A program made the translations under genes and the position numbers. Shown in pieces: positions 3,152 to 9,799 of a stretch of 20,954 nucleotides of DNA (its first letter is position 1; each line of letters begins with the position of its first letter). The stretch is from a virus. Location of the stretch: positions 1 to 20,954 of IMG/VR virus record IMGVR_UViG_3300037485_000800; one strand, given 5' to 3'. The notes beneath the pieces were generated by a model. It was not told the origin of the DNA, searched no databases, and worked only from the letters and a program-made list of their open reading frames with translations.

Positions 3152-3406
3152 ATGGAAACAAAAATCAACACAGGGGCTATCTTTAAAAACGATAAGAAAG
3201 CAAGCGACAAACACCCCGACTATCGCGGAAAGATTAATGTAGATGGAAAAGATAAAGAGATTAGCCTTTGGCTCAACACATCTGAAAAAGGAACTAAATA
3301 CTTTTCTGTAAAGATTTCAGAGGTATGGAAGCCGAAAGAGGGCGGCGCGGGAACTACCGCCAACCCAGTAGTAACCAATGCAGTAACAGACGATTTACCA
3401 TTCTAA
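3152..3406 (+). CDS. SSB-like / DUF736-like protein with acidic tip
   Basis: An 84-residue protein. Residues 5-58 (NTGAIFKNDKKASDKHPDYRG..., then a strand-rich stretch ending KGTKYFSVKISE) resemble the small OB-like DUF736 proteins found in phages and plasmids. It ends in DDLPF, very like the acidic C-terminal tip (DDDIPF) by which bacterial single-stranded DNA-binding proteins recruit partner enzymes. A linker rich in Gly, Ala and Thr precedes the tip. Placed just before the ERF annealing protein, it probably coats ssDNA or recruits recombination partners. Family match is from memory of the pattern. Confidence 0.65.
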   Translation: METKINTGAIFKNDKKASDKHPDYRGKINVDGKDKEISLWLNTSEKGTKYFSVKISEVWKPKEGGAGTTANPVVTNAVTDDLPF

Positions 3407-3484: not shown

Positions 3485-4096
3485 ATGAAAAACATAGCAA
3501 AAGCAATTTTAAACGTAATGAATGAAGTCAAAGGTATTGAGAAGTCAATGACCGTTGGCAGCGGATCTAACTCTTACAAAGGAGTGCCAGACCAAGTAGT
3601 AAAAATAGTAATCGGGGAAGCAATGGCAAAGAACGGGCTTTGTATTCTGCCGACTAAAGTAACACCAAAAACAACGATTGACAGGTGGGAGCATACCGAT
3701 AACTACGGAACTAAAATGAAGCAGAATATCACAACAGAAGTAACTACTGAATATTTACTTTTACACGAAAGCGGAGAAAGTATTTCATTAAGCGGTTACG
3801 GTCACGGTATGGATAGTCAGGATAAAGGAGCAGGCAAAGCAACTACATACGCTTTAAAATACGTTTTGCTTTATACGTTCCTTGTGCCAACAGGCAAGAT
3901 AGACGATGCGGACGTTCACCATTCAGACAGCATTACAACACCCGCGAAAGTTGAAAAACCAAAGCCCGCGTTCACTATTGAAAAGTTCCAGGCAGCGTTA
4001 GACAAAGGTTTTGACATAGCGAAGATAAAAGAAACGCACTATGTTGCAGCCGATATTGAGGCTAAGTATTTACTATTTTCTAAAGCAGCGAAATAA
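3485..4096 (+). CDS. erf: ERF-family single-strand annealing protein
   Basis: 203 residues. The N-terminal ~140 residues match the ERF superfamily of phage single-strand annealing recombinases: a helical start (IAKAILNVMNEVKGIEK), a beta-rich middle, and the signature GHGMDSQDKGAGKATTYALK at residues 106-125. ERF proteins form rings that anneal complementary ssDNA produced by a partner 5'-3' exonuclease. That partner is the YqaJ exonuclease at 4879, now separated from this gene by a homing endonuclease. The C-terminal 60 residues (after HHSDSITTP) are a variable linker and small helical domain. Assignment is firm; the exact subfamily is not. Confidence 0.9.
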   Translation: MKNIAKAILNVMNEVKGIEKSMTVGSGSNSYKGVPDQVVKIVIGEAMAKNGLCILPTKVTPKTTIDRWEHTDNYGTKMKQNITTEVTTEYLLLHESGESISLSGYGHGMDSQDKGAGKATTYALKYVLLYTFLVPTGKIDDADVHHSDSITTPAKVEKPKPAFTIEKFQAALDKGFDIAKIKETHYVAADIEAKYLLFSKAAK

Positions 4097-4126
4097 TTTG
4101 TAATTCAATTTGTTTTATTATCTTTG
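4097..4126 (+). promoter_or_regulatory. Perfect Bacteroidota promoter before pseudoknot leader A
   Basis: TTTG (4097-4100), an 18-bp spacer and TATCTTTG (4119-4126), a perfect match to both boxes, beginning immediately after the ERF stop codon. Predicted start is about 4130-4132, which is where the first paired strand of leader A begins. It gives the GIY-YIG gene its own transcript. Confidence 0.8.
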
Positions 4127-4130
4127 CCCT

Positions 4131-4228
4131 GCTACTCACGATGAAAATTTTTAAAAATCCATCCGTTCACATTGCCAAAAGCCGCATCCTGTGGCTCGTG
4201 GGTAGCCTTTGTGTTCGGGTGGTATTTT
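4131..4228 (+). ncRNA. Pseudoknot leader RNA, element A
   Basis: Leader of the GIY-YIG gene. Helix X: 4131-4140 with 4197-4206 (10 bp, one G-U). Helix Y: 4159-4165 with 4216-4222 (CCATCCG/CGGGTGG), a TT/TT internal loop, then 4168-4171 with 4210-4213 (CACA/TGTG). Hairpin Z: 4180-4185 with 4191-4196. Order is X5'-Y5'-Z-X3'-Y3', so X and Y interlock. TTGCC follows Y5' and CTT (4207-4209) joins X3' to Y3'. The structure ends at the ATG (4233). Element B at 7535-7655 has the same plan with different paired bases. A 29-codon uORF (4141-4230) lies inside and stops 2 nt before the gene. Confidence 0.75.
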
Positions 4229-4232
4229 AAAA

Positions 4233-4877
4233 ATGGTTGGCATTTATAAGATTACAAACCCTAAAAATAAAGTATATATAGGTCAGAGTATAAATATTGA
4301 AAAACGGTTTAAGGCATACGGACACAGATTACCAAAATCGCAAACAAAACTATATAACTCTTTAAAAAAATACGGTATTGAAAATCACAAGTTTGAAACC
4401 TTATTAATTTGCGAACTATCTGAATTAAATGAAATGGAAAGGTATTATCAAGACTTATATTCAGCAACGGATATAGATGGATTAAACATAATTAAAACAT
4501 CTTGCCATACAAGGTCTGGCGAACATTCTATTGAAACAAAGCAAAAAATTAGAAATTCTTTAATTGGTAAAAAAAGACCAAAACATATTGGAGAAAACTT
4601 AAGAAGACTATACACGGGTAGAAAGCTATCGACATCACATATTGAAGCAATGAAAAGAAATTGCGGCAAAGCAAACTTAGGCAAACATCTTTCATTAGAA
4701 ACAAAAAACAAAATAAGCAATAACAGTAAAATGGCAAGAGTAATTATTGACACCGATACTGGGGTAACATATAAATCAATAAGATTAGCTGCCGAAGCTA
4801 CTAATATTAAATATGGAAGATTACGCTATTATTTAAGACCAACATCTACTAATAAAACCACCTTAATTTATAAATAA
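4233..4877 (+). CDS. GIY-YIG homing endonuclease
   Basis: 214 residues from ATG 4233; an upstream in-frame ATG would add residues inside the RNA structure and is less likely. The GIY-YIG domain spans residues 1-90: GIY at 3-5, YIG at 15-17, catalytic-type R25 and E69. Residues ~95-160 hold NUMOD3-like DNA-binding repeats (SGEHSIETKQKIRNSLIGKK and a second copy near 148-165), and residues 177-204 a NUMOD1-like helix-turn-helix (YKSIRLAAEATN). Such enzymes cut a specific site and spread their own gene by repair. It sits between the ERF and exonuclease genes, is visibly more AT-rich than both, and is probably a mobile insertion. Confidence 0.9.
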   Translation: MVGIYKITNPKNKVYIGQSINIEKRFKAYGHRLPKSQTKLYNSLKKYGIENHKFETLLICELSELNEMERYYQDLYSATDIDGLNIIKTSCHTRSGEHSIETKQKIRNSLIGKKRPKHIGENLRRLYTGRKLSTSHIEAMKRNCGKANLGKHLSLETKNKISNNSKMARVIIDTDTGVTYKSIRLAAEATNIKYGRLRYYLRPTSTNKTTLIYK

Positions 4878-4878
4878 C

Positions 4879-5517
4879 ATGGAACAAAAACCTTCCCCTC
4901 ATTTTCAGAAATCTGATGAATGGTTTAAACAACGATACGGCAAATTTTCAGCAAGTGAAATACATAAGCTGTTAGGAATTAAAGGACTTGGCGAAACGGG
5001 TAAAAGCTACTGTTTTAAAAAGGCTGTTGAATTATTGTATGGCGAAGATGCTACGGAACACTTTGAAAGTTTCGACATGAAGCGCGGAATAGAAACAGAG
5101 CCTATTGCCTTTCATAAGTTCAAAGAGTTGAAAGCTGCTGAATTTATAGACGTTCAGGAAACTACTTTTTTTCCTTATGGAGAAAATGCGGGTGCAAGCC
5201 CTGATGGCTTAGTAGGTTCGGACGCTGTATTAGAAATAAAATGCCCGCGCTCTGAAAAGTTCTTTAGATTAGTAGCGGAGGGTTACGATGCTATTGATAA
5301 GGAATATATTGCACAAATGCAGATGCAGATAATGTGTAGTAATTCAGTCCGCGCTCACTTCTTCAACTACTTAATTTTTAACGGGGAAGAATTTTACCAT
5401 GAGATTATCGTACCCCGTGACGAAGTAATGATTGAAAAGATTAAAGAACGGATTGCGGAGGCGGTTATAGTTCGGGATGAATACGTTAAACAATTAACAT
5501 CTAATAAGCAGTTCTAA
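4879..5517 (+). CDS. YqaJ/lambda-exonuclease-family recombination nuclease
   Basis: 212 residues of the PD-(D/E)XK fold. Visible motifs: S24-A-S-E near the start, E74 in RGIETEP, D109 in GASPDG, E119-I-K121 as the metal/catalytic motif, and Q146/Q148 in AQMQMQ. Lambda-exo-type enzymes degrade the 5' strand of duplex ends and load a single-strand annealing protein on the 3' tail; the ERF protein upstream would be that partner. The gene starts 2 bp after the homing endonuclease stop and shares its last base (TAATG) with the next gene. It is intact, with all key residues present. Confidence 0.92.
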   Translation: MEQKPSPHFQKSDEWFKQRYGKFSASEIHKLLGIKGLGETGKSYCFKKAVELLYGEDATEHFESFDMKRGIETEPIAFHKFKELKAAEFIDVQETTFFPYGENAGASPDGLVGSDAVLEIKCPRSEKFFRLVAEGYDAIDKEYIAQMQMQIMCSNSVRAHFFNYLIFNGEEFYHEIIVPRDEVMIEKIKERIAEAVIVRDEYVKQLTSNKQF

Positions 5518-6641: not shown

Positions 6642-6850
6642 AAACCCTACTATTCCTTTCCGGTGCTTTAATCGGCACACTTTTAACAGCTAACTACTAC
6701 ACAGAAGAAACTCAATACTACCCGTTGGAGTGCAGCGATGAGGCGAGTTTTGTAATTGAGATGGTGGCAAATGATACCACGCTACAAAGATACATTACCG
6801 ACTACGGTTATCGCTGCCAAGTGAGGCACGAAATAAAAAACTTGAAATAA
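6638..6850 (+). CDS. Small membrane-anchored or exported protein
   Basis: 70 residues with an N-terminal hydrophobic segment (TLLFLSGALIGTLLTA, residues 3-18) preceded by only one lysine, then a polar domain with two cysteines (C33 and C60) that could form a disulfide outside the cytoplasm. It may be a signal anchor or a signal peptide with poor cleavage site. It overlaps the upstream gene by 4 bp and lies 1 bp before the methyltransferase gene. Function unknown; superinfection exclusion is one possibility but is not shown by the sequence. Confidence 0.65.
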   Translation: MKTLLFLSGALIGTLLTANYYTEETQYYPLECSDEASFVIEMVANDTTLQRYITDYGYRCQVRHEIKNLK

Positions 6851-6851
6851 A

Positions 6852-7502
6852 ATGAATTTATTAGAACTTTTTGCAGGAAGTAGATCTGTTGGTAATAAAG
6901 CTGATGAACTTGGATTTAATGTTTTTTCGGTTGATTGGACTGGATATGATAAAATTAATTTAACTATTGATATTGAGTATTTAAAAATCAATGATATTCC
7001 ATTTATTCCTGACATTGTTTGGGCATCACCCGACTGCACTACCTACTCAATAGCAGCCTGTTCAACACACAGAATAAACTCAATAGAGCCTAAAAGCGAA
7101 TACGCAAAAAAATGTGATGCTGTAAACAAACACTTTATTTCATTAATAAAAGAATGGCTATTAATAAACCCTAATATGGTTTTTTTTATTGAAAACCCGC
7201 GCGGAATGATGCGTAAAATGCCATTTATGCAGGAGTTTAAAAGGCATACAATATGGTATTGTCAATATGGCGATGATAGAGCCAAGCCAACAGATATATG
7301 GACTAATAGCCAAACATGGAAACCGCGATCAATCTGTCATAACGGAAATAAAAACTGCCACCACCAACCTGCACCGAGAGGAAGTAAGACAGGAACGCAG
7401 GGTCGAAAAGGAAGTTATAATCGCTCTGTAATACCAAGTGACCTATGCAATGAAATTTTAACAAGCATAATAACCCCGAAAAATAATTTTACGCTTTTGT
7501 AA
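6852..7502 (+). CDS. Short C5-cytosine methyltransferase-like protein
   Basis: 216 residues with the core motifs of DNA cytosine-C5 methyltransferases: motif I LLELFAGSRSVG (3-14), SAM-contacting V-D28, the nucleophile loop SPDCTTYS (59-66, C62), and the ENV-like ENPRG (114-118). The usual proline before the catalytic cysteine is Asp (PDC not PPC), and a target-recognition domain is missing or very short. The C-terminus carries QYGDDRAKPTDIWTN and a Cys/His cluster (C162, C169, H170, H171) possibly binding zinc. Phages use such enzymes to mask sites from host restriction. Its specificity cannot be read from sequence. It is AT-rich and ends just before a new promoter. Confidence 0.82.
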   Translation: MNLLELFAGSRSVGNKADELGFNVFSVDWTGYDKINLTIDIEYLKINDIPFIPDIVWASPDCTTYSIAACSTHRINSIEPKSEYAKKCDAVNKHFISLIKEWLLINPNMVFFIENPRGMMRKMPFMQEFKRHTIWYCQYGDDRAKPTDIWTNSQTWKPRSICHNGNKNCHHQPAPRGSKTGTQGRKGSYNRSVIPSDLCNEILTSIITPKNNFTLL

Positions 7503-7529
7503 AAGCTATTGTTTAATTGATTAATATTG
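7496..7529 (+). promoter_or_regulatory. Promoter before pseudoknot leader B
   Basis: TTTG (7496-7499), a 22-bp spacer and TAATATTG (7522-7529). The same -7 variant TAATATTG occurs in the promoter at 11483-11513, which supports it. Predicted start is about 7534-7535, exactly where helix X of element B begins. The -33 box overlaps the stop codon of the methyltransferase gene. Confidence 0.6.
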
Positions 7530-7534
7530 CCCCT

Positions 7535-7655
7535 ACGTATTCAGTTTATATCATGATTTTAAAATTAACCCCGTTCCAACACTGCCTAAGACAGCGACCT
7601 ATTCGTAGGATTGCTGCACTGGATACGTCTTTGTTGGACGGGGTGAAATTTTATC
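7535..7655 (+). ncRNA. Pseudoknot leader RNA, element B
   Basis: Leader of the replication initiator. Helix X: 7535-7545 with 7618-7628 (11 bp, one T-G pair). Helix Y: 7569-7573 with 7639-7643 (CCCCG/CGGGG, extendable by one A-T pair), then 7576-7581 with 7632-7637 (CCAACA/TGTTGG) across a TT/A internal loop. Hairpin Z: 7592-7597 with 7611-7616 plus 7598-7601 with 7606-7609, closed by a TTCG loop. CTGCC follows Y5' and CTT (7629-7631) joins X3' to Y3', as in element A. The GTG start at 7656 lies 12 nt past helix Y. A 41-codon uORF (7553-7678) starts in the first loop and overlaps the gene start. Confidence 0.75.
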
Positions 7656-8426
7656 GTGAACAGTTACGACTTAAGTAGAAACTTTTTTAATTGGTGTTTT
7701 GAAAATCCTGAGAAGATTTCACCCAATCATACTGCCCTTTATTTTTTCTGTATTGAGCATTGTAATCGTTTAGGGTGGAAAGAGAAGTTTGGACTTCCTA
7801 CTACAATGGCAAAGGAGGCAATCGGAATACGCTCTTACAATACCTACATTAACACCCTTAATGATTTAGTTGAGTTTGGGTTTATAAAACTAATTGAAAA
7901 GTCTAAAAATCAATTTAGTAGTAATATAATTGCCCTATCAAAATTTAATAAAGCACATGACAAAGCACTTGATAAAGCATTGATAAAGCACGGGACAAAG
8001 CAACGTGAAAGCATTAGTAGTATAGATAAACAAGAAACAAAGAAACAAGAAACAATAGTATTACCCGAAGTAAAAAAACTTCGTGTTGATTGTAAAGAGT
8101 TATTTATTAAAAAGTATTATTTAATTACAGGAACGGAATACTATTGGACTGCAAAAGATGCTACTAATCTAATTAAGCTGATTGACAAAATAGCATTTAA
8201 AACAAAAGAGAAATTTCCTGACGAAGGAGAAGCAAAGATTTTAGAGGGCTTTAACGTAATTATAAATTCTATTCAAGATGCTTGGCTACTTGCCAACTTT
8301 TCAATACCCAACATTAATTCAAAGTTTAACGAAATATTTACACAAATAAAATCTAAAAAAAATGGAACAATCGACATTACCAAGCAAAAAGGATACTCAA
8401 TCTTTGGAGATTACAACCAAGATTAA
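7656..8426 (+). CDS. Replication initiator with N-terminal winged helix
   Basis: 256 residues, starting with GTG at 7656 (NSYDLSRNFFNWCFENPEKI). Residues 1-95 form a winged-helix-like DNA-binding domain (LPTTMAKEAIGIRSYNTYIN as recognition helix region). A low-complexity linker (100-135) is encoded by five 12-bp DNA repeats, and a helical C-terminal domain (140-256) resembles DnaD-type replication proteins. It precedes the small possible loader and the DnaB-like ATPase, as in lambda O-P type modules, so it probably binds the internal repeats and nucleates helicase loading. Translation appears to be controlled by the pseudoknot leader. The family call is from fold pattern and context. Confidence 0.8.
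   Translation: MNSYDLSRNFFNWCFENPEKISPNHTALYFFCIEHCNRLGWKEKFGLPTTMAKEAIGIRSYNTYINTLNDLVEFGFIKLIEKSKNQFSSNIIALSKFNKAHDKALDKALIKHGTKQRESISSIDKQETKKQETIVLPEVKKLRVDCKELFIKKYYLITGTEYYWTAKDATNLIKLIDKIAFKTKEKFPDEGEAKILEGFNVIINSIQDAWLLANFSIPNINSKFNEIFTQIKSKKNGTIDITKQKGYSIFGDYNQD
7946..8002 (+). repeat. Iterons inside the initiator gene, candidate replication origin
   Basis: Five copies of a GAYAAAGCA-type repeat. The AAAGCA cores start at 7950, 7962, 7974, 7985 and 7997, i.e. spaced 12, 12, 11 and 12 bp, about one helical turn, so all face the same side of the DNA. Directly downstream (8020-8060) is a very A-rich stretch with repeated ACAAGAAACA, suitable as an unwinding region. Lambda carries its origin iterons inside gene O in the same way. 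Confidence 0.6.
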
Positions 8427-8820
8427 TAATCTATCAAAAGTATTAATTCATTACAATCAATTAACAGCGTTTCCTTATTCCGATTTACAGATAATTGAGT
8501 GGGCTAAATCTATTAATGAACTCATGCCAGAACTATCAAACGAAACACTAAAGTTGATTATTGATAGAATGAAAATAGGTTACTATCCATTTGATAATAG
8601 GCTTGGTATTCAGAACATATTTAATGGAATTAAGCAGTATTTAAACGATGAAATAAACAGGCTAAACAATAGTAAGATGGATGTGTTTTCTTCTTCATTC
8701 GAAGATTTTGAAAAAACAAATAAACCTATACAGGATAAGATAAACATACTAATTCCTTACCTAAATAAATTAACTCCAAAGTATTTAAATCCTACGGTTA
8801 TACACGATGGAATACTATAA
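8362..8820 (+). CDS. Possible helicase-loader-like protein
   Basis: 152 residues beginning MEQSTLPSKK. The ATG at 8362 overlaps the initiator gene by 65 bp; a TTG near 8404 is an alternative start. Residues ~28-90 (LIHYNQLTAFPYSDLQIIEW, then a helix ending IQNIFNGIKQYL) have the spacing of the small helical domain in phage helicase loaders of the G39P type, followed by a polar linker and a short C-terminal helix. Its place between an initiator and a DnaB-like ATPase supports this. The similarity is weak by eye, so the call is tentative. It overlaps the next gene by 14 bp. Confidence 0.55.
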   Translation: MEQSTLPSKKDTQSLEITTKINNLSKVLIHYNQLTAFPYSDLQIIEWAKSINELMPELSNETLKLIIDRMKIGYYPFDNRLGIQNIFNGIKQYLNDEINRLNNSKMDVFSSSFEDFEKTNKPIQDKINILIPYLNKLTPKYLNPTVIHDGIL

Positions 8821-9799
8821 ACTTGAAAACAAGTTAGCCGAAATTAAGGAGTTTGCCGAGAAAGGGCTGACCGACCTTAAATCAACAGGCATGACTTGTA
8901 TAGACGAATACTGGATGCTTAAAAAAGGGTATCCGTTATTTGTTGCAGGTAATCCCGGTGCAGGTAAAACTGAATTTATCTTTGAAGTAATGATTAATAC
9001 TTCCATTGATTACGGTTGGAAACACTTTATTTACTGCGGTGAGGGCGGAAACATTGAGCATATCTTTAATGAGTTGCTTCATAAGTATCTTGAAAATAAT
9101 TACAAATATGTTTCCGAAAGTCAAAAGGTGGCGGCTGAATATTTTATTAGTGAGCATTTTATTATTGTGGACCATGATAAAGACTTTACAATAGATGAAT
9201 TTTATGACCTTGCTGAAAAGTGCGAGCGTGAATTATCTATTAAATTTTCAACTACTCTATTTGACCCATTTAACGACATTAAAGACGAAGTAGAAAAGTT
9301 TGCAGGTCGTGATGACAAATACTTAGAATACGCTCTTAAACGTGTCCGCATAAGTTCTAAAAAAAATAACCGGATAGATATACTGATTAACCACGTAGCA
9401 GATATACACCCGAAAACGGATAGAGATAGCGGACGCGATTACTTGCCACCTGCTTTACCTACTCAATGGGCGCGAGGACGTACTTGGTGGCGGAGGGCTT
9501 TTGTTATGATATTAGTTTACCGACCTTATACATTTATGAAAGGAACTGACGGGCAATTACACGCTGAAAACGAAACACATATTATTGTGCAAAAGTTTAA
9601 ACCGAAAGGAGTTGGTAAATTAGGAAAGGCTGTAATATTCTGGGATTGGAAAAAGAACCGCTACTATTGGAAAGACATTTTAGGAAACATTATTTATCAC
9701 GGTGGCAAAGTAGTAACCCCCGTTGCAGAAGATGTAAAGCTGCCGCCAAACTTAAATTTTCACGAAGAAAAAATATCAACAGACTTAAACCCCTTTTAA
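8807..9799 (+). CDS. DnaB/RecA-type replicative ATPase (helicase domain)
   Basis: 330 residues forming a single RecA-like ATPase domain. The Walker A motif GNPGAGKTE is at 48-56, a catalytic-type glutamate lies in YCGEGG (79), and the Walker B strand TTLFDPF is at 149-155. The region WARGRTWWRR (221-230) and the basic loop QKFKPKGVGKLG (262-273) fit the DNA-binding loops of DnaB C-terminal domains. There is no N-terminal DnaB domain, so it is shorter than DnaB (~450-470 aa); phage helicases can be like this. It would unwind DNA at the origin in the upstream initiator gene. A RadA/KaiC-like ATPase is an alternative. Confidence 0.82.
   Translation: MEYYKLENKLAEIKEFAEKGLTDLKSTGMTCIDEYWMLKKGYPLFVAGNPGAGKTEFIFEVMINTSIDYGWKHFIYCGEGGNIEHIFNELLHKYLENNYKYVSESQKVAAEYFISEHFIIVDHDKDFTIDEFYDLAEKCERELSIKFSTTLFDPFNDIKDEVEKFAGRDDKYLEYALKRVRISSKKNNRIDILINHVADIHPKTDRDSGRDYLPPALPTQWARGRTWWRRAFVMILVYRPYTFMKGTDGQLHAENETHIIVQKFKPKGVGKLGKAVIFWDWKKNRYYWKDILGNIIYHGGKVVTPVAEDVKLPPNLNFHEEKISTDLNPF

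Follow-up and report, generated by a model that had tools for sequence, protein, structure and literature searches.

Introduction

Several described RNA leaders come close to the elements reported here. The gene 32 leader of phages T4 and RB69 is likewise a phage mRNA leader in which an H-type pseudoknot controls the translation of a DNA-metabolism gene; it serves that single gene and is bound by the gene's own product (PMC3014915). Phage homing endonuclease genes are also held off by RNA structure over the start (PMC3014915), as with the start-site hairpins of I-TevI, mobE and segB, which keep endonuclease translation low and are simple, gene-specific structures with no pseudoknot and no upstream open reading frame (uORF), not common to initiator genes (PMC3014915). 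Outside phages, the repY-repZ leader of ColIb-P9 and other IncI plasmids combines a leader ORF with an mRNA pseudoknot before an initiator gene; in that system the pseudoknot has an activating role and its loop is the target of an antisense RNA. At hok/mok, a type I toxin locus, the mRNA folds back to shut an upstream ORF whose translation the main gene needs. The put sites of phage HK022 are structured RNAs at an operon 5' end, present more than once per genome. For the Bacteroidota, the promoter consensus is TTTG/TANNTTTG with a G at -5, and the Flavobacterium -7 box reads TAHHTTTG, its last G being at -5; translation in Flavobacterium uses no Shine-Dalgarno sequence and needs low structure around the start codon (PMC6847099).

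Here we analyse two leaders, A and B, in a virus sequence of 20,954 nucleotides (IMG/VR record IMGVR_UViG_3300037485_000800, positions 1 to 20,954; hereafter the window). An earlier note, made from the sequence alone, had claimed that they share a pseudoknot although the genes behind them are unrelated. We show by covariation that A and B belong to a leader RNA family of Bacteroidota phages, type A, which is predicted to be 5'-terminal; the hosts are inferred from the promoters and because one relative is a Polaribacter phage.

Results

Two interlocked leaders in one phage

Both leaders lie on the + strand. Leader A has its promoter at 4097-4126, composed of TTTG (4097-4100), an 18-nt spacer and the -7 box TATCTTTG (4119-4126). 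Four nucleotides past this box, at predicted transcript positions +1 to +10, lies the 5' strand of helix X (X5', 4131-4140), all 10 bases of which pair with X3' (4197-4206) to give 10 bp with one G-U and a duplex energy of -15.2 kcal/mol. Helix Y (Y5' 4159-4171, Y3' 4210-4222; -16.3 kcal/mol) consists of 7+4 bp flanking a UU/UU internal loop. A conserved, unpaired UUGCC core (4172-4176) follows Y5', then hairpin Z (4180-4196; 7 bp with a UCC loop, duplex energy -9.7 kcal/mol), and a CUU junction (4207-4209) links X3' to Y3'. The A/U tracts prolong Y outwards, Y5' as far as 4147, such that the arms 4147-4171/4210-4234 are 80% complementary up to the start codon of the gene at 4233, which Y3' reaches through UAUUUU. 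A uORF of 29 codons (MKIFKNPSVHIAKSRILWLVGSLCVRVVF, 4141-4230) starts with an AUG at +11 and stops 2 nt upstream of the gene's ATG.

Leader B repeats this plan. Its -7 box, TAATATTG (7522-7529), predicts +1 at 7534, and X5' (7535-7545) begins at +2, pairing with X3' (7618-7628) over 11 bp with one G-U. Y5' (7568-7581) and Y3' (7632-7644) form a helix with one bulge; the conserved unpaired core is CUGCC (7582-7586), hairpin Z lies at 7592-7616 and the CUU junction at 7629-7631 (duplex energies for X, Y and Z: -13.3, -19.1 and -11.4 kcal/mol). Downstream of Y3', B has GAAAUUUU where A has only UAUUUU. The uORF (7553-7678; 41 codons, MILKLTPFQHC...) overlaps the GTG start of its gene at 7656.

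X and Y interlock in both leaders, and the best crossing helix pair of A, like that of B, was matched in none of 200 dinucleotide shuffles. The earlier note's placement of X, Y and Z, its interlocking of X with Y and its count of 10-11 bp with one G-U in each X thus held. Its statement that the X strands differ in sequence held only in part: A[C/U]UCA/UGG[G/A]U is common to A and B, and is absent from X of three other members (L127:5203, L308 and L264:7783; contigs and loci of relatives are given as L numbers). In a predicted fold of A, UUGCC can pair alternatively with GGGUA of X3'; this pairing is impossible in members with GGAU or GGAC, and we therefore see no conserved switch.

A family supported by covariation

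The gene downstream of B has 73 relatives in IMG/VR, and six of these loci carry a type-A leader (L041-L045, L052). We searched IMG/VR with a DNA pattern derived from A, B and L041 and filtered the matches by X pairing, which left about 35 genuine type-A elements, all in contigs of uncultured phages. We then built a covariance model, R1, from 17 members with Y and Z pairs only, leaving out all X pairs and B itself. R1 recovered B (40.1 bits, E=1.5e-4 in 0.73 Mb) and found two members outside the reach of the DNA pattern, L264:8743 and L308:5359-5478. X, although absent from the model, pairs over 12 bp in L264:8743 and 11 bp in L308, and it pairs in B as well. The contig of L264 holds at least four leader copies, before different genes.

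Across 19 distinct sequences, 81% of the X and Y cells are paired (standard pairs: X 95.6%, Y 74.6%), with 59 two-sided changes against 24 expected, and none of 500 shuffles did as well; sliding the registers of X and Y lowered the paired cells to 33-46%. The X helices of B, L127:5203, L264:7783 and L308 share no strand with other members, yet are fully paired. Type A thus qualifies structurally as an H-type pseudoknot leader, its two crossing helices being preserved through compensatory change. While the helices change, the CA-[U/C]UGCC core and the C[U/C]U-UG junction are nearly invariant: U/C-UGCC, which the earlier note had pointed out after Y5' in A and B, occurs in all 25 distinct members, and the X3'-Y3' junction, which that note had correctly called identical in A and B, is CUU in 23 and CCU in 2 of the 25. 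Part of this conservation is imposed by the search pattern, whose motif was drawn from three members, and since the alignments comprise related phages, the shuffle counts are not probabilities.

No Rfam 15 family matched any leader in permissive or gathering mode (for the window, even with E allowed to reach 5), and we found no earlier description of type-A leaders in the open-access literature searched. The suggestion that no named RNA class has this plan therefore stands for these sources and cannot be proved beyond them. The Rfam DUF805b RNA (RF02914) does occur above its gathering score at L065:7670-7702 and L105:3336-3368, without overlapping the leaders. Isolate phages gave no usable match to type A. 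Among bacterial genomes (about 85,000 species) there was one pattern match (15 bits, E=1.9), the pattern covering only the commonest subtype; we take it as chance and do not infer a bacterial origin.

The earlier note had set a covariance-model search as its check, and had named a lack of homologues, loss of X or Y pairing, or a match to an Rfam family as grounds for refutation. Homologues were found with X and Y pairing kept and a consistent position before start codons, and none of the refuting outcomes occurred. It had missed the uORF and the placement of +1, and the wider list of genes and a sister class, both given below, are also to be added.

The leaders serve unrelated genes

The gene behind A (4233-4877, + strand) encodes a GIY-YIG homing endonuclease of 214 aa (PF01541, 2e-6; phrog_314, 1.2e-31), as had been proposed. 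Behind B (7656-8426, + strand, GTG start) lies a gene for a DnaD-like protein of 256 aa, for which Pfam and PHROG searches gave no match. Its product resembles the annotated DnaD-like initiator of Marinitoga phage MPV1 (E=3e-7) and is 61% identical to a Polaribacter phage protein annotated 'transcriptional regulator', so that its earlier naming as a replication initiator rests on weak support.

Elsewhere, type-A leaders stand before further GIY-YIG genes (L086, L112, L152), HNH and AP2/HNH genes (L089, L135, L178, L188, L190), a NUMOD4-HNH gene (L264:8183), DnaD-like genes (L041, L043, L091, L094, L105, L187), DUF6291 genes (L097, L190), an initiator-like family starting MKDPAFLFYS (L092, L104, L106, L125, L129) and DNA methylases (L081, L127), one of them fused to an SNF2 helicase. 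Representatives were searched and the remainder assigned from a near-identical start. Because these gene families are unrelated, we treat the leader as a unit of its own. Around the leaders in the window, PHROG searches identified genes for SSB-like, Erf-like annealing, RecE/YqaJ-like exonuclease and primase/helicase-like proteins (3152-3406, 3485-4096, 4879-5517, 8807-9799), the single-strand DNA-binding protein with a score of 7e-11.

The transcript is predicted to begin with helix X

We set +1 from the promoter rule alone, blind to X. In 32 of 34 elements, 9-10 of the first ten predicted nucleotides (+1 to +10) pair with the ten that precede CYUUG; the exceptions in X5' onset are B, one nucleotide later, and L264:7783, eleven later. 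It therefore seems that the leader opens with the X5' strand, and we infer, in the absence of 5'-end data, that transcription starts at the first base of X5'. The type-A order is thus the -7 box, 4 nt, X5' (10-12 nt) and, some 10 nt upstream of the gene's start codon, Y3'. In nearly all members this codon lies 25-31 nt past the onset of the CUUUG junction, which places Y3' within the ribosome footprint. We saw no antisense -7 box within the type-A elements, and an antisense RNA was rejected on that ground.

A start codon inside the knot

In all type-A elements a start codon follows X5' and precedes the core, for the most part at +10 to +20. AUG is present in 19 of 19 distinct leaders, whereas shuffled segments give an expectation of 5.9 (at most 11 in 500 shuffles), and the frame stays open through Y5' in all members, with no stop before the end of Y5'. 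Across members the UUGCC core falls in uORF frames 0, 1 and 2, and the peptides differ past the first codons. The core is therefore kept as RNA, which supports the earlier note's view that A and B share RNA and not peptide; since the frame through the core varies, it would be the act of translation, not the peptide, that matters. A stalling leader peptide was rejected on the same evidence, there being no conserved peptide or frame. The uORF stops are scattered from 52 nt upstream of the gene to 150 nt inside it, so simple stop-start coupling is not uniform. A -1 ribosomal frameshift signal was likewise rejected: offsets between uORF and gene vary, L188 is already in frame, and the A-rich run directly adjoins Y within the knot, whereas such a signal needs a slippery heptamer 5-9 nt upstream of its structure. 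In L188 (3567-4167) the uORF, whose stop lies inside the gene, is open in the same frame as the AP2/HNH gene, and an N-terminally extended protein is therefore possible.

Class K and other leader types

A promoter-anchored scan for crossing helices in the relatives' contigs (score ≥42) gave 35 candidates against 2 in reversed controls, the majority not of type A. Among them is class K, in which the loop of a 5' hairpin, W, contains X5' and that of a second hairpin, built of stem Y and an inner stem V, contains X3'; a U-run follows. W, X, V and Y all covary. The kissing helix X is 100% paired in 11 sequences, with two-sided changes in 6 of 8 pairs; stem V, on which the search did not draw, recurs in many sequence versions; and in paired cells and covariation the structure was better than all 500 of 500 shuffles (11 sequences). 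The class K model, R2, was made from a subset of elements, the MAFFT alignment of all class K elements being too poor. Class K leaders had no Rfam match.

Class K leaders occur at the predicted +1 before many Bacteroidota phage genes (for example L022:1048-1149, L027:1350-1452 and L034:6106-6203; L273:11276-11374 on the - strand). They precede GIY-YIG relatives of A's gene (L193, L194, L195, L204), and they also precede DnaD relatives of B's gene, either directly or with one small gene in between; seven contigs contain class K and type A together. The two classes appear to share one job. Neither of the models R1 and R2 finds the other's members, however, so homology of type A and class K is not shown. 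Class K has no start codon at the position of the type-A uORF, which is therefore not required by every leader of the plan. In the cultured Polaribacter phage Danklef_1, a class K leader (L002:7527-7622; near 28,570-28,660 of MT732458) precedes Danklef1_42, one gene ahead of a relative of B's gene, and this phage offers a laboratory entry point.

We also observed a third leader type, C (L005:7135-7234, L228:1750-1847, L229:892-989), with the order X5', directly the start codon, a core AUGCCUC, X3', GGCUA (V stem GCC/GGC) and Y3'. Finally, L068 carries two alike promoter-linked elements (5245-5360 and 6747-6860) whose outer helices of 13-17 bp differ in sequence and whose loops have CAAGGGTAACAT...GAAAGGCTTGTTT...AACCCTAAA in common; they may represent another pseudoknot leader class.

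Discussion

A proposed two-lock leader and its rivals

The explanation that we consider best is that type A is a cis-acting two-lock leader, off by default, in which X blocks the uORF and Y blocks the gene. This mechanism is inferred, without expression, probing or 5'-end data, and we hold it no more firmly than its negation. X would bury the entire stretch upstream of the uORF start codon, its sole landing site, so that a finished transcript would be unable to start the uORF. Y would cover the region where a ribosome must land to use the gene's start codon, and might in addition reduce transcription via the U-rich tract downstream. Only a ribosome that engaged the uORF before X3' was transcribed would traverse Y5', hold Y open and permit translation of the gene. 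Nucleases, initiators and methylases would in this way be kept low, with the supply of new transcripts and of free ribosomes setting the amount made. Where translation is structure-tuned and free of Shine-Dalgarno sites, as in Flavobacterium, a lock of this kind should work well. The CA-UUGCC / CUU-UG core would most likely either build the knot's junction or contact a protein, and which of these is not shown. Against the two-lock model, an invariant unpaired core exceeds the needs of a plain lock and hints at a bound partner. The scattered uORF stops and the lack of a matching start codon in class K also count against it.

The main rival, which remains possible, is a protein- or ligand-gated operator, in which the core is bound by a phage or host protein or by a small molecule, the knot fixed and a DNA-metabolism regulon turned off together, the uORF start codon being accessory; gp32 acting on the T4 gene 32 pseudoknot is the parallel (PMC3014915). 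In its favour, the core stays constant as the helices vary, the presence of at least four copies before different genes in one phage contig is what a regulon predicts, and the window encodes a single-strand DNA-binding protein (PHROG 7e-11). However, no candidate binder has been identified and the core is perhaps only structural. Moreover, in other phages the relatives of these genes stand behind class K leaders, whose conserved bases are different, so that one common binder would need to recognise both classes.

It is possible, though less likely, that type A is a transcription attenuator, in which Y and the U-rich tract act as an intrinsic terminator with its loop fastened to the 5' end, and uORF translation or a factor prevents termination. 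UAUUUUU follows Y3' in most type-A members and U6-U8 follows in class K, and the order of A-tract, GC stem and U-tract is terminator-like. Yet the U-run is weak in A (UAUUUU) and in B, the U-tract ends at the start codon, very close for attenuation, and a terminator scan flagged neither A nor a class K leader, although its 8-nt loop limit is blind to these hairpins.

Less likely still is a 5'-end protector, whose blunt 5' helix shields the RNA from decay that depends on the 5' end, or an antitermination RNA binding polymerase like HK022 put. X5' does begin exactly at the predicted +1, and the leaders stand at operon starts with two or more copies in some genomes, like put sites; but this reading leaves unexplained why a uORF start codon is obligatory and why Y3' keeps a fixed, short spacing to the gene's start codon, and a U-tract directly after the element fits termination, not antitermination. 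That there is no functional RNA, only chance pairing or a copied promoter-plus-leader cassette, can be all but ruled out: members are concentrated in related phages and copied cassettes beside homing endonucleases are plausible, but X, Y and Z show compensatory changes, none of the 500 or 200 shuffles matched the structures, and four X helices that have no strand in common with the others (B, L127:5203, L264:7783, L308) pair fully.

A bolder reading holds that Bacteroidota phages have a general modular lock, in which the first nucleotides of the mRNA are tied into the loop of a hairpin before the start codon, in at least three folds (type A with Z and a uORF, the kissing hairpins of class K, and type C with a uORF and V stem) that interchange before related genes. 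We lean against this reading. If true, it would be a convergent regulatory principle and not one RNA family, and the interchange of different folds before related genes, if real, would count among the few instances of convergence in RNA regulation.

Comparison with known systems

To the best of our knowledge, type A is an undescribed, strongly covarying RNA family in phages of a major phylum with few known phage regulatory RNAs. It bears on translation control in hosts without Shine-Dalgarno sites, and on how phages hold nucleases and initiators low. Because its first nucleotide is predicted, its uORF located and a design for the lock proposed, it can be tested by simple reporter mutants.

An HDV-like ribozyme was rejected as an identity: the Z loops vary and the CUU junction has no G, so that P1.1, the pairing of the P3 loop with the P1-P2 junction, is impossible, and with X5' at the predicted +1 there is nothing to cut. 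HK022 put is a pair of stem-loops at the start of early transcripts, with no pseudoknot and no uORF, and acts on polymerase. The hok/mok locus resembles type A in its logic, but its fold-back is from the 3' end, it involves an antisense RNA, and its sequence is unrelated. In contrast to repY-repZ, type A showed no antisense -7 box in its elements, and its knot ties the 5' end. The gene 32 leader differs from type A in that type A precedes many unrelated genes, places its 5' strand at the predicted +1 and combines a uORF with a Z hairpin and the UUGCC/CUU core; because so many unrelated gene products are involved, autoregulation of the gene 32 kind is unlikely. Membership of type A in any of these systems is not shown; nonetheless, on our reading it would work like the known leader locks, namely gene 32, repY/repZ, hok/mok and the start-site hairpins.
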